This document shows positions 11,823 through 50,298 of a stretch of DNA of 64,000 bases, one piece after another. Source of the stretch: Planctomycetia bacterium (GTDB lineage Bacteria > Planctomycetota > Planctomycetia > Pirellulales > UBA1268); contig BJHK01000004.1 of the NCBI GenBank assembly GCA_014192425.1, positions 1-64,000 on the forward strand, in the 5' to 3' direction. How positions within the stretch are numbered: position 1 is the stretch's first letter; every line of letters begins with the position of its first letter. A model generated the notes under the pieces. It was not told the DNA's origin, made no database searches, and saw only the letters and a program-made list of their open reading frames with translations. Position numbers and translations under genes: made by a program.

Positions 11823-13373
11823 CTAGCCGCGGCTCGCCTTGGCGAGGTCGAGGACGTCCTGGAGCACGAACGGCATGGGCAGCGGCTCGCCGAAATGCCG
11901 GTCGAGCAGGCTCCGGTAGCGGTCGATCTCGTCGGCCATCTCCTCGGCGGTCCGCTCGTCCCGGCGCAGGACGGGAGACGCGTCGAGCACCTCGCGCCAG
12001 GCGGCGAACGCCTCCTCGTAGGCCGTGCGGGCCGCCTGGAGGTCGGCTTTCCGATCCGCCTCGTGGGCCTGCCAGAGCCGTTCCCGGGCCCGCAGGGCCG
12101 GCGCCGTGGCCTCGGCGATCGCGCACGCCCGCCAGAAATCGAAGCTCACGATCTCCCGGTAGCGTTCGATGATCTCGGCCGTCTTCAGCGCCTCGTCGTG
12201 GAGCCGGGCCAGTTCGCGGGCCCGGTCACGAACGGAATCCGGCGCCTCGCGGGCCACCAGCGGCCAGGTCGGTGTCGAGGCCAGGTAGGCCTCCGCCGCC
12301 ACCTGCTGCTGGGCCGGCGTGCGCGATGCCGGCGGGGTCTCGACGGCCAGCCGCTGCTCCGCGGGCAGCGTCTCGTGAAGGCGGCGTTCCAGGGCGGCGA
12401 ATCGTCCCGGGAGCAGGGCCTCGAGCTCCTTCGCCAGCCGCGCGGCCTTGGCCTCCTGCTCCTCCTTGAGCGCCAGCCGGATCGGCACGCGCCAGCTCGT
12501 GGGGATCTCGCGGCTGGCGTACGCGGCGAGGTCCTTCTGTGCCCGGGCCCAGGCGTCGCCCGCGGCGCTGCCGAACGTCCCTTCGGACTCCAGTGCCCGG
12601 GCGTAGTTGATCGACCACTTCATGACGTGGCTGTGGAAGACGAGCGGATTCGGCACCGGATACCCGGCATCGACGATCGCCTGCGCGGCGCGGTACTTCT
12701 CCCTGCCGACCAGCCAATTGTCCCGCTCTGGCCTGGTCCGCTCAGGGTCGTCGCGGAGATGGAAATCGTCATCGTCGCGGAACAGGCGACGAAACTGCCG
12801 CTTCTCGTCCGCCGTGCCGATCTTGTGGCCGATGAACCAGCCCATCTGCCCGGGGAGCCGCGGCTCGGTCCGGTTCATGCGCATGCCCTGACGGAGGAAC
12901 TCGATGCCCTTGATGACCCAGGCATACCGGTGGCGGTAGTCGTCGAACTCCATCGAGATGTTGTAGGACAGGTTGTGGGCCTGGAAGTCCCAGACGCTGA
13001 AAAAGTGCGGCTGGAGCTTGGTCATCTGCTCGAGCGCGGCGGACAGGCTCGTCCAGTCCTTGACCATCTTGTAATGGTTGATCCGGTCCCAGAGGAGCGC
13101 GACGGCGACGTTCTTCAGCCCCAGCGTGGCCAGGCGCAGCGTCTCACCGGTGGCGTCGACGTCCCCCAGCCCCGCCTGCGCCAGCCCGCTGGCCGACCGC
13201 ATCCGCGCCAGCGTGCCCCCGGCGGTCTTCTGGTCCGCCGGCTGGCTCAACGCCGACAACGGCACGAGGAGGGCCGCGATCACCACCAGTGCCACCACGG
13301 TCTCCGTCCGCATGCCGAGCAGCGGCCCAGCGGAGCCGCTCGGCTGTCCCACCACGAAGTCTCGGTCGTTCAT
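11823..13373 (-). CDS. Conserved-looking membrane-anchored protein in an ABC transporter operon
   Basis: The 516-residue product has one N-terminal membrane helix (about 22-40) and a long soluble, helix-rich region with many Trp/Tyr and charged residues, for example VALLWDRINHYKMVKDW and WDFQAHNLSYNIS. The middle resembles tetratricopeptide-like helical pairs, but I cannot assign a named domain. From memory, planctomycetes carry a similar protein behind an ABC-2 permease. The ATG at 13373 overlaps the permease stop (ATGA), so it is the third gene of the operon ATPase-permease-this protein. A role in the same export process is inference from the operon. Confidence 0.75.
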   Translation of the reverse strand: MNDRDFVVGQPSGSAGPLLGMRTETVVALVVIAALLVPLSALSQPADQKTAGGTLARMRSASGLAQAGLGDVDATGETLRLATLGLKNVAVALLWDRINHYKMVKDWTSLSAALEQMTKLQPHFFSVWDFQAHNLSYNISMEFDDYRHRYAWVIKGIEFLRQGMRMNRTEPRLPGQMGWFIGHKIGTADEKRQFRRLFRDDDDFHLRDDPERTRPERDNWLVGREKYRAAQAIVDAGYPVPNPLVFHSHVMKWSINYARALESEGTFGSAAGDAWARAQKDLAAYASREIPTSWRVPIRLALKEEQEAKAARLAKELEALLPGRFAALERRLHETLPAEQRLAVETPPASRTPAQQQVAAEAYLASTPTWPLVAREAPDSVRDRARELARLHDEALKTAEIIERYREIVSFDFWRACAIAEATAPALRARERLWQAHEADRKADLQAARTAYEEAFAAWREVLDASPVLRRDERTAEEMADEIDRYRSLLDRHFGEPLPMPFVLQDVLDLAKASRG

Positions 13374-15190
13374 GTCGATCCCACCTCCCGACTGCGAAGA
13401 AAGAACGCCCCGGCGACGACCAGCACGGCGAGATACCCGAGCGTCTCCGCGGCGTCCATGGCGACGCGGTCGAGGGGAATGTCGAAGCCGCCGGCCACGA
13501 AGTCGGACGTGCCCAGGGCCGAGAGCGACGGAAACAGGCCCGCCGCCAGGCGGAGCGGCGCGAGCAGGGCCGTGTCGATCCACTTCATCCAGCGGACCGC
13601 CGCCGTATCGGCCAGTTCCGCCATGATGCTCGCCTGGGTCACGATCCGGTAGAACGATTCGATCGGCCCGCCCCCCGGCGCCTGCAGCGTGTCGCCCGTG
13701 ACCTGGCTGGTGAAGAGTTTGAAGATGAAGTCGCGGAACTGGCCGACGAGCAGGATCGACAGCGTGCCAAACAGGGCGACCGGCCCGGCGACGACGGTGC
13801 TGAACACGACGCCGAGGGCCGTCAGCAGGAGCATCTGGAACCAGATGCCGAGGCAGCTCTTGGCGTAGTTGAGGACGAACGACCCGTCGCCGGCACGCAG
13901 GTAGCAATCGGCCTGCGCGACTCCGAAATACTGCCCCGGCTCGAGGCACTGGATGACGATCTCCACGCGGCCGTCCGCGACCAGTTCCTCGAACAGATCG
14001 ACCTCGCGGCGCCCCCCGTCGGCCGCCGCGACCGCGAGCCGGCGTGGAATCGGATGCCGGTCGGGCGTCGCCTCCTTGGCGATGAACACGATCGGATCGC
14101 TCTGCAGCCGGGTGACGGGATTGCGGACGCGGATGCTACCGCTGATCCCCCTGTCGATCTGCCCCTTGTGGGTGCGGAACACGTGGACCTCGAGTTCCAG
14201 GGGCAGGCCGTCGGGAAACTCCTGCTCCCGGACCGCTGCGAACGACCAGATCGCGGCCGCCAGCGTGCCTCCCTCGATGTAGGACCGGTAGGCCCATTCG
14301 TCCCCGACGCTGATTCCCTTCGCCATCGGCACGCCGTTGCGACCGAGAAAAGAGAGCCGGCCCCGCAGCGGTCGTCGGGCCTCGAGGATTCCCTCGGGCG
14401 CCTCCACGACGTGCCTGCCGCCCCCCGCAGCGCGGACGCGGTGGGTATGCCCCTGCTCCAGTTCCGCGACCCCCGTACCCGCGGCATCGAGCCGGACGCG
14501 GTGCCTGTGGCCGTGGTCGAGGCTCGTCTGCCCCGCGGACCCGATCGGGTCGCCCGCGTCGTTGCGGATCTCGACGAGACTGCCGGCCTCGACGGTGTGG
14601 GAGTGGGCGACGCCACGCGCGACGAACACCCAGCCGGCGAGTCCCATGATCGCGAGCAGGCCGGTGCCCACCAGCGCGAACCCGAGAATCCGGCCGAGCA
14701 CGATTTCGCCGCTGCGTGCCGGCTTGGTGGTCACGGTCTGGATCGCCTTGGCCTTGAAGTCCGCCGGCAGGCTGAAGACGGCCAGCAGCAGCGTCACCGC
14801 GCAGACGAGAAAGTTGGTGGACCCGAGGATGAATTCGACCCGCAGCCGTCCCGGGTTGACGCTCGCCGGATCGAGGAACCAGCCGGCGAAGACGACGATC
14901 AGGGCGAACAGGCCGAGGACCACGAGGACGTGCCGGCGCAGCGACTCCTGCACCGCCAGCCGGGCCAGGGCCCAGGTCCGCCGCCACGAGGTCGCGGCCA
15001 GGTCACGGCCGACGCCCACGAGGCCGCGGTACACCCGGTCGCCGGCGCTGACCGGGCCGACGACGAGCGTATGCAGCAGCCAGCAGCCGGCCGCGACCAT
15101 GACGGCGAGGATGGCCACGCTCACCAGGTAGCCGCCGACCGCCGGGCCGAGCCATGTCAGGAACGGGGGAATGTCCTCTTCGAGCACCAT
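13370..15190 (-). CDS. ABC-2 type permease with large extracytoplasmic insertion
   Basis: The 606-residue membrane protein follows its ATPase by 8 nt. Helices lie at about 15-45, 85-105, 120-145 and 170-190, and again at about 420-470 and 560-585. The segment VTTKPARSGEIVLGRILGFAL is typical of ABC-2 permeases, where this loop contacts the ATPase. Between the helix groups lies a soluble domain of about 220 residues rich in His and charged residues (for example DHGHRHRVRLD and EQGHTHRVRA), which could bind metal. The substrate is unknown. The stop overlaps the start of the next gene. Confidence 0.85.
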   Translation of the reverse strand: MVLEEDIPPFLTWLGPAVGGYLVSVAILAVMVAAGCWLLHTLVVGPVSAGDRVYRGLVGVGRDLAATSWRRTWALARLAVQESLRRHVLVVLGLFALIVVFAGWFLDPASVNPGRLRVEFILGSTNFLVCAVTLLLAVFSLPADFKAKAIQTVTTKPARSGEIVLGRILGFALVGTGLLAIMGLAGWVFVARGVAHSHTVEAGSLVEIRNDAGDPIGSAGQTSLDHGHRHRVRLDAAGTGVAELEQGHTHRVRAAGGGRHVVEAPEGILEARRPLRGRLSFLGRNGVPMAKGISVGDEWAYRSYIEGGTLAAAIWSFAAVREQEFPDGLPLELEVHVFRTHKGQIDRGISGSIRVRNPVTRLQSDPIVFIAKEATPDRHPIPRRLAVAAADGGRREVDLFEELVADGRVEIVIQCLEPGQYFGVAQADCYLRAGDGSFVLNYAKSCLGIWFQMLLLTALGVVFSTVVAGPVALFGTLSILLVGQFRDFIFKLFTSQVTGDTLQAPGGGPIESFYRIVTQASIMAELADTAAVRWMKWIDTALLAPLRLAAGLFPSLSALGTSDFVAGGFDIPLDRVAMDAAETLGYLAVLVVAGAFFLRSREVGST

Positions 15191-15198
15191 GCCGCCAC

Positions 15199-16164
15199 CT
15201 ACAGGCGCCCGTCCCGATCCGCGGGGGCATCCCGCCGGGCGCGGCGACCGGGCCGCGCCTCCGTGTCGCGAACCACCTCCAGGAACAGGTCCTCGAGCGT
15301 GGTTGTCGGGTTGCCGATCTCGATGCCCGAGACGCCGTGTCGTTCGAGCACCGACCGGACCTCCGCCACCGCGGCGGCCGGCAGATTGCGGGCCCGGATC
15401 TGCGTCACGTCGGTGACCCGGAGCAGGTCCTCGACGCGGCCGAGTTCCTTGAGCTCTCCCTGGTGCAGGACGGCGATCCGGTCGCAGACGTCCTCGACGT
15501 CGGCGAGCAGGTGGGAGGACATGATCACCGTCTTGCCCCGGGCCTTGAGGTCGAGGATCAGATCCTTCATCTCGCGGGTGCCGATCGGGTCGAGGCCGCT
15601 GGTCGGCTCGTCGAGGACGACGAGCTCGGGGTCGTTGATCAACGCCTGGGCGACGCCGATCCGCCGCGTCATCCCCTTGGAGTATTCCTTGAGCTGGCGG
15701 TTCTTGTCCCGACCGAGCCCGACCATCTCGATGAGTACGTCGGCCCGGCGCTTCCGTTCGGCCGGCGGCATGTCGAACAGCCGTCCGTAGAAGTCGAGCG
15801 TCTCCTCGGCGTCGAGGAACTTGTAGAGGTAGGACTCCTCGGGCAGATACCCGATGCGTTCGTTCTTGCCGACGTCACCGGCATCGCGACCGAAGACGAA
15901 GGCCGCCCCCGACGTGGGAAAGAGCAGGCCGAGGATGAGTTTGATCGTCGTGGTCTTGCCCGATCCGTTGGGCCCGAGCAGGCCGAAGATCTCGCCACGG
16001 CGGATCGTCAGGTCGAGCGGCTTGAGGGCCACCTTCTTGCTGCGGCCCCAGAAGTCGCGGTAGGTCTTGGAAAGGTTCCTGGTCTCGACGACCAGCTCGC
16101 CGCCAGACGCGGCCCCCGCCCGGGGAGCGGGATCCCCTTCTTTCCCGGAATCGCTCATCGGCAT
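15199..16164 (-). CDS. ABC transporter ATP-binding protein
   Basis: The 321-residue ATPase has Walker [10 protein letters not shown] (residues 64-72), Walker [13 protein letters not shown] and the switch His in [10 protein letters not shown]. The signature motif is degenerate, reading [10 protein letters not shown] instead of LSGGQ, a form common in ABC-2 drug/polysaccharide-type exporters. A C-terminal extension of about 70 residues resembles the DUF4162-like regulatory tail. It heads the three-gene operon ATPase-permease-anchored protein. The first ATG (16164) and a second one two codons later are both possible. Confidence 0.92.
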
Positions 16165-16280: not shown

Positions 16281-16309
16281 TTGACAGGGCGACACCAGAA
16301 GCCTACACT
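16281..16309 (+). promoter_or_regulatory. Near-consensus sigma-70 promoter
   Basis: TTGACA (16281-16286) and TACACT (16304-16309) are separated by exactly 17 bp, the best match to the housekeeping promoter consensus in the window. Transcription would begin near 16316, about 55 nt before the DUF1559 start codon, inside or next to the Fur-like operator described below. Confidence 0.7.
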
Positions 16310-16318
16310 GCTGCTGTT

Positions 16319-16331
16319 GAGAATGATTCTC
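16319..16331 (+). promoter_or_regulatory. Fur-like operator (6-1-6 inverted repeat)
   Basis: The sequence GAGAAT-G-ATTCTC is a perfect 6-1-6 palindrome. With the next six bases (GTTATT, 16332-16337) it matches about 14 of 19 positions of the classical Fur box. It begins about 10 bp after the -10 element, so a bound repressor would cover the transcription start. This suggests iron- or metal-responsive control of the DUF1559 gene. Confidence 0.55.
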
Positions 16332-16371
16332 GTTATTCGAAACGCATTTTTCAAGCCCCTGAGTTGCAAAA

Positions 16372-17469
16372 ATGGCTGCAGCACTGGTCAAGATGCCCGC
16401 CCTGTCGATCGGCCAATTTCGTCGGCGGTTTCCGCACCGCCCGTCCGCTCGCCAGGCGGGTTTCACCCTCGTCGAACTGCTCGTCGTGATCGCGATCATC
16501 GCCGTGCTGATCGGCCTGACGATTCCGGCGGTGCAGAGCGCCCGCGAGTCGGTCCGACGGGCGTCCTGCCAGAACAATCTCAGGCAGCTCGGGCTGGCGG
16601 TCGCCAACTACGAGCATTCGAAACGCTGCTTTCCGGCCTCGGCGCTGGCCGTTGCCAGCGGCACAGAGTCCCCGTGGTCCGGCCAGGCCCAGCTCCTTCC
16701 CTTCCTCGAAGGCGACGTGGTCTTCCGGCGGATCGATTTCTCGAAGCCCTACGGCAATGATGCCAACAAGGCGCTGTTCCCCCCGAACGGCGTCGCGGCG
16801 ACACGGGTGGACGTGCTGGTCTGCCCGAGCGAGAAACGCGCCGAGCCGGTTCTCGACGGGTCCGGAGCAGCCAAGCATTTTCCGCTCAACTACGGCCTCA
16901 ACACCGGGGCGTATCTCGTCTTCGACCCCGCGACCGGGGCCGACGGTGGCGGCGCCTTCGCACCGTTCAGGCAGGTGCGGCCCAGCCAGTTCACGGACGG
17001 ACTGAGCAACACGCTGGCGTTCGCCGAGGTCAAGGCCTTCACGCCCCGCTGGCAGGACGTTTCCTCCATGCCCGTGACGCCGCCGACGGACGGCGCTGCC
17101 GCCGCGGCACTCGCGACCGGCGGCAGTTTCTCCACCGAGGCCGGCCACACCGAGTGGGTCTGTGGCCGCACTGTGCACATCGGCTTCACGACCGCCCTGC
17201 CACCGAATACGCGGGTTGCCTACCGGCACTCGGACGGCAAGGAGTATGACGTCGACCTGACGTCTCCCCGGGAGACGGGCCCCACGAAGGCCTCGAACAT
17301 GCAGCCCGATGCGACCCGCGCCGTGGTCACCTCCCGCAGCCATCACAGCGGCGGTGTGAACGTCAGCTTCATGGACGGCTCGGTCCGCTTCATGCAGTCG
17401 GACATCGACGGCTTCACATGGCGGGCCCTCGGGACGAGGGCCGGCGGCGACGTCCCCACGGGGCTGTGA
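16372..17469 (+). CDS. DUF1559 protein with type IV pilin-like N-terminal methylation motif
   Basis: The 365-residue product has a basic leader (about 1-28), then [20 protein letters not shown], the prepilin cleavage motif (G/FTLVE) with its hydrophobic helix. The DUF1559 domain follows, including the N-terminal [16 protein letters not shown] and the C-terminal [17 protein letters not shown] signature. DUF1559 proteins are hugely expanded in planctomycetes and are thought to form secreted pseudopilin-like surface structures; individual roles are unknown. This copy is monocistronic and has its own strong promoter and a Fur-like operator. Confidence 0.93.
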
Positions 17470-50180: not shown

Positions 50181-50298
50181 CCGGAATTATTCCAACGGCC
50201 GGGCGGGGGTGTCAATCGAGGCCGGCCGCAGATTCACGGCACCCAACCGCACGAACACACCCCCGAAAAGGACGGGTCTTGTCGCGGGTAGGCAAAGA

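Follow-up and report, generated by a model that had tools for sequence, protein, structure and literature searches.

The classical Fur consensus of proteobacteria and Bacillus (TGATAATnATTATCA) is a 7-1-7 inverted repeat, a layout that PerR and Fur boxes have in common. The site described here, TGAGAAT-G-ATTCTCg, is likewise of odd length, has the same register and lies over a promoter; the same motif also precedes feoAB in the genome to which it belongs. Compared with the classical operator, the consensus of this lineage (TTGAGAnTnAnTCTCAA) contains a G at the fourth position, while position 7 is variable. A second system for comparison is formed by the hemP/hmuP haem-uptake loci under Fur control, such as the hemP operon of Stenotrophomonas (PMC9241770). 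Planctomycete relatives of our organism also contain hemP genes led by an iron box, with the box shared between hemP and a divergent gene. However, the planctomycete partner is often a prepilin-like DUF1559 protein or another putative surface protein, few being TonB receptors, and in the genome of our window no hemP was detectable.

The gene behind the site belongs to the DUF1559 / SBP_bac_10 family (PF07596). Planctopirus limnophila has no larger paralogue family than this one, with 68 copies of which two are essential (PMC10632474), and Rhodopirellula baltica has 74 members (PMC2754498). Papers on the family cover copy number, two essential members and responses to stress; a function for it was not found in them. 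Our protein has in common with this planctomycete family a type IV prepilin-like amino-terminus, a PF07596 domain scoring above the cut-off and a carboxy-terminal H-X9-DG motif. With type IV pilins and pseudopilins it shares the amino-terminal cleavage and methylation motif and the long helix, and the nearest fold match is PilA4 of Thermus, although this match is weak and for the carboxy-terminal domain, about 280 residues long, no solved structure is matched at E ≤ 0.001.

Promoter and probable operator in front of the DUF1559 gene

The features of the locus are listed in Table 1, with positions in the window, i.e. the whole 64-kb stretch of DNA that was analysed.

Table 1. Features of the DUF1559 locus, with their positions in the window and the evidence for each.
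Feature	Position	Strand	Evidence
ABC transporter ATPase gene, divergent	15199–16164	-	PF00005; conserved neighbour by synteny
Sigma-70-type promoter, TTGACA-N17-TACACT	16281–16309	+	sequence; geometry kept in relatives
Fur-type operator TTGAGAATGATTCTCGT (core 16319–16331)	16314–16336	.	24.2 bits against the feoA-leader matrix
DUF1559 (PF07596) gene, 365 amino acids	16372–17469	+	PF07596, E = 1.1e-48; N_methyl, E = 4e-8
Codons of signature GHTEWVCGR (residues 258–266)	17143–17169	+	(almost) unchanged across 57 aligned rows

The -35 box TTGACA (16281–16286) is separated by a 17-nucleotide spacer from the -10 box TACACT (16304–16309), and the pair matches the promoter consensus at 10 of 12 positions. 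In the surrounding 9 kb two promoter-like sites are present, with 0.3 expected. The original prediction considered this the best promoter of the window, which is nearly true; a site on the minus strand at 50215 (TTGACA-N18-AATAAT) scores higher, matching at 11 of 12 positions. The palindromic core GAGAATGATTCTC is located about 40 bp upstream of the DUF1559 gene. As had been predicted, both promoter and Fur-like palindrome are present in front of this gene, with GAGAAT-G-ATTCTC starting 10 nucleotides after the -10 box. The complete operator overlaps the predicted transcription start and extends from about +1 to +17, where the start is inferred from the -10 box. Such a position would permit repression, as the operator overlaps the promoter and start region, and relatives show the same layout.

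Perfect 6-1-6 palindromes are common in the GC-rich window, which contains 54 of them, so that a palindrome of this kind by itself proves nothing. What takes the site beyond chance is its match to the motif of feoA leaders from the same lineage, together with its conservation in relatives. Leaders of feoA were collected from relatives and 30 of them were searched de novo for palindromes of the form w-Nk-rc(w). Allowing up to two mismatches, TTGAGA-N5-TCTCAA is present in 24 of the 30 leaders; TGAGAC-N3-GTCTCA, which overlaps it, is present in 25. Shuffled leaders gave at most nine. Many of the feoA leaders also share the layout seen in the window, with some 8 to 20 bases between a TACACT-like -10 box and the palindrome behind it, and TACACT likewise precedes the box in the feoA leader of our own genome. 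A position weight matrix was built from 25 of the feoA-leader sites of relatives, leaving out the genome of the window. The original prediction would have been refuted by a lack of match to the Fur motif of the lineage; scored against this matrix, the site reaches 24.2 bits, which is of feoA-like strength: the feoA sites score between 16.9 and 33.6 bits when each is left out in turn, and the feoA site of our genome scores 25.6 bits. The second-best site of the window has 11.7 bits, and the top scores of 20 shuffled windows range from 2.9 to 14.1 bits.

The 3.98-Mb genome was searched by patterns, by which more divergent sites could be missed. Two strong sites were found, the one in the window and the one in the feoA-feoB leader (FeoA, at C6:43514-43723, was confirmed by Pfam), and a control with the pattern written backwards gave no matches. 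Weaker sites in this genome score at most 15.0 bits, and the best two have unconvincing contexts. The site at C2:102231 (15.0 bits) lies upstream of a short open reading frame, read as AbiEi-like, and that at C29:26726 (13.4 bits) falls in the start codons of a response regulator resembling NtrC; both were rejected. The other DUF1559 loci of the genome do not have the box, none of them scoring above 9.8 bits.

Conservation of the probable operator in relatives

All five relatives that have an orthologue of the DUF1559 protein at 54–67% sequence identity carry the box in its leader, with the promoter geometry mostly kept, and boxed DUF1559 leaders of relatives generally retain TTGAC(A)-N16/17-TA..(A)T. 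Among more distant members, at 41–50% identity, boxed and unboxed genes are mixed, and some are boxed out to the level of the order. When 43 sequences are arranged in a tree, the boxed genes cluster strongly, needing four changes compared to 14.6 when the labels are shuffled. The boxed proteins share the sequence GHTEWV[DC][GA], while the unboxed sister clade has GHTEWPDGRVHH; GHTEWV goes with the box and GHTEWP with its absence. In this closest sister subfamily the box is present in none of the 12 members examined. A paralogue from our own genome (L113, G000:C29:23940-24971) belongs to it and falls in a separate, supported clade of the tree. When DUF1559 subfamilies are compared, the boxed one is distinguished by the GHTEWV[DC][GA] signature and the Fur-type operator, the latter being mostly absent from the others examined. 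Leaving out loci selected by pattern or by hemP, 36 of 45 GHTEWV genes are boxed (nine are not), against two of 36 other DUF1559 genes (34 are not); the Fisher probability of 6e-12 is indicative only, as the rows are related by descent.

Scanning GTDB genomes with a profile of the boxed members yielded 80 planctomycete loci, 77 of them with a readable leader. In these named planctomycete genomes, members of the GHTEWV subfamily have a box of more than 14.5 bits in 71 of the 77 leaders, compared to 0.4% of shuffled leaders; the scan used an HTEWV pattern and so tests the box rather than the signature. Stieleria sedimenti (L243) and Ca. Laterigemmans baculatus (L249) are among the species with a boxed member. 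Class-wide, subfamily members were found in 130 of 149 genomes. The leaders of 69 high-scoring members were examined, and most of those from the order of the window contain the box. Its frequency varies by family: 19 of 23 leaders are boxed in f22, a family outside this order, but 7 of 20 in f23 and none of eight in f21. The operator is a conserved feature of the subfamily as a whole, and the original prediction, which envisaged a single iron-responsive copy, understated the case.

Among the loci of the GTDB scan there are 17 at which hemP (PF10636) and a DUF1559 gene are divergently arranged; the box is found in 15 of these intergenic regions. Such pairs include L185, L189, L192, L193, L199, L202, L208, L218, L226, L231, L232, L233 and L242, with one Fur-type box per pair, except for L231 and L233, which have two. 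Some of the DUF1559 partners of hemP fall outside the GHTEWV subfamily. Generally, most hemP leaders of relatives are boxed, and the genes divergent from them encode DUF1559, PEP-CTERM-looking or DUF4198-like proteins. The PEP-CTERM-looking (or DUF4198-like) partners, seen in L253, L258, L259, L264, L269, L272 and L274, suggest that planctomycete iron regulons contain further putative surface proteins. Two relatives from the order have a gene for a TonB-dependent receptor near hemP, in one case with a box.

Our own genome is about 96% complete, and neither a TonB-dependent receptor (PF00593) nor hemP was found in it, so that their absence is likely rather than certain. Without detectable TonB receptors and hemP, its only clear candidate targets of Fur are feoAB and the DUF1559 gene. 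TonB-dependent receptors were found in one of 37 genomes of the family to which the window belongs (f1, G000–G036), compared to 16 of 23 relatives from the same order but outside the family; hemP is likewise scarce in f1.

The probable regulator and its target

The site is very probably a Fur operator that covers the start of transcription from a promoter of housekeeping type and by which iron would repress the DUF1559 gene. The match to the feoA motif supports this reading, as do the orthologues, which keep the box at an equal place relative to the promoter. The boxless members in families f21 and f23 speak against it. The genome contains two Fur-family genes above the Pfam cut-off, and the operator might instead be bound by another protein of this family, Zur or PerR, and respond to zinc or peroxide. 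Such an assignment agrees with the presence of a second Fur-family gene, which has a weaker resemblance to solved Fur proteins, and with the 7-1-7 layout that PerR and Fur boxes share. NCBIfam gives no confident Fur, Zur or PerR label to the first gene, its scores not separating Fur from PerR. However, the closest solved relatives of this first regulator are Fur proteins, and the genes led by the motif are those of iron and haem uptake, i.e. about 25 of the 30 feoA genes, hemP in most relatives that possess it and a TonB receptor gene, which makes control by Zur or PerR unlikely.

The operator could also serve the ABC transporter operon on the minus strand (15199–16164 and 13370–15190), its proximity to the DUF1559 gene being incidental. 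The box is about 150 bp from the start of the ATPase gene, and the divergent arrangement is kept in many genomes of the family. In family f1 it is part of a fixed block, in which the divergent ATPase gene and a gene for a protein of about 606 amino acids are accompanied by a convergent gene of unknown function and then by what we take, from reading the sequences, to be rpsI and rplM. Grouping of the ABC genes in one block with these two points to chromosomal synteny, and the block looks like ordinary synteny. In relatives the box is located directly downstream of the -10 box of the DUF1559 gene, and it stays with this gene in genomes that have the ABC genes elsewhere or not at all as its neighbours (G012, G033, L189 and L249 are examples). 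The ATPase gene is probably not the target of the operator, and we consider it very improbable that the site serves the operon. Other genes recur beside boxed DUF1559 genes, namely PSCyt1-DUF1549-DUF1553 and DUF1501 genes (L249, 1-3644 and 4970-8854; L140, L178, L231 and L244). The idea that a palindrome came to lie beside a promoter by chance, for which the 54 palindromes of the window might speak, can practically be dismissed, since the score is far above those of shuffled windows, the site is one of two strong ones found in the genome, and conservation in orthologues and throughout the class refutes it.

With the site taken as a Fur operator, Fur-Fe2+ would bind TTGAGAATGATTCTCGT when iron is sufficient and keep the DUF1559 gene from being transcribed. 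Under iron shortage, Fur would release the operator and the gene would be expressed together with feoAB.

The DUF1559 protein and its possible role

Apart from PF07596, the NCBIfam models TIGR02532 and TIGR04294 exceed their cut-offs for the DUF1559 protein. In the alignment of 57 rows, residues His259, Glu261, His325 and Asp335 are invariant, without a fold match that would support a metal or haem site. The AlphaFold2 model has a pLDDT of 88.7 and a pTM of 0.84. When this model is compared with solved structures, it matches through the pilin helix only, which lends no support to a pocket for iron or haem; the sequence search likewise gives matches to the pilin helix only. For this reason, no ligand is named here. 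The product would be a surface protein of prepilin type that most likely assists in acquiring iron or haem. As such a surface protein appears to be controlled together with Feo, it may help to supply the cell with iron or haem, and it may take part in their capture at the cell surface. More tentatively, the class-wide subfamily might be a surface component of a planctomycete iron or haem route, replacing TonB receptors in lineages like that of the window, where the Fur regulon appears to consist of little more than feoAB and the DUF1559 gene; at present this is a possible but rather doubtful extension.

The literature searched, which takes in few subscription journals, yielded no Fur regulon for a planctomycete. 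With the lineage motif such a regulon becomes predictable, and the GHTEWV signature is a means of finding the subfamily elsewhere. The operator is the same putative iron-responsive switch as that of the ferrous-iron importer feoAB, and gives DUF1559 proteins their first testable link to iron. For one DUF1559 subfamily, a conserved putative iron operator provides a physiological context and a growth condition in which it can be studied.
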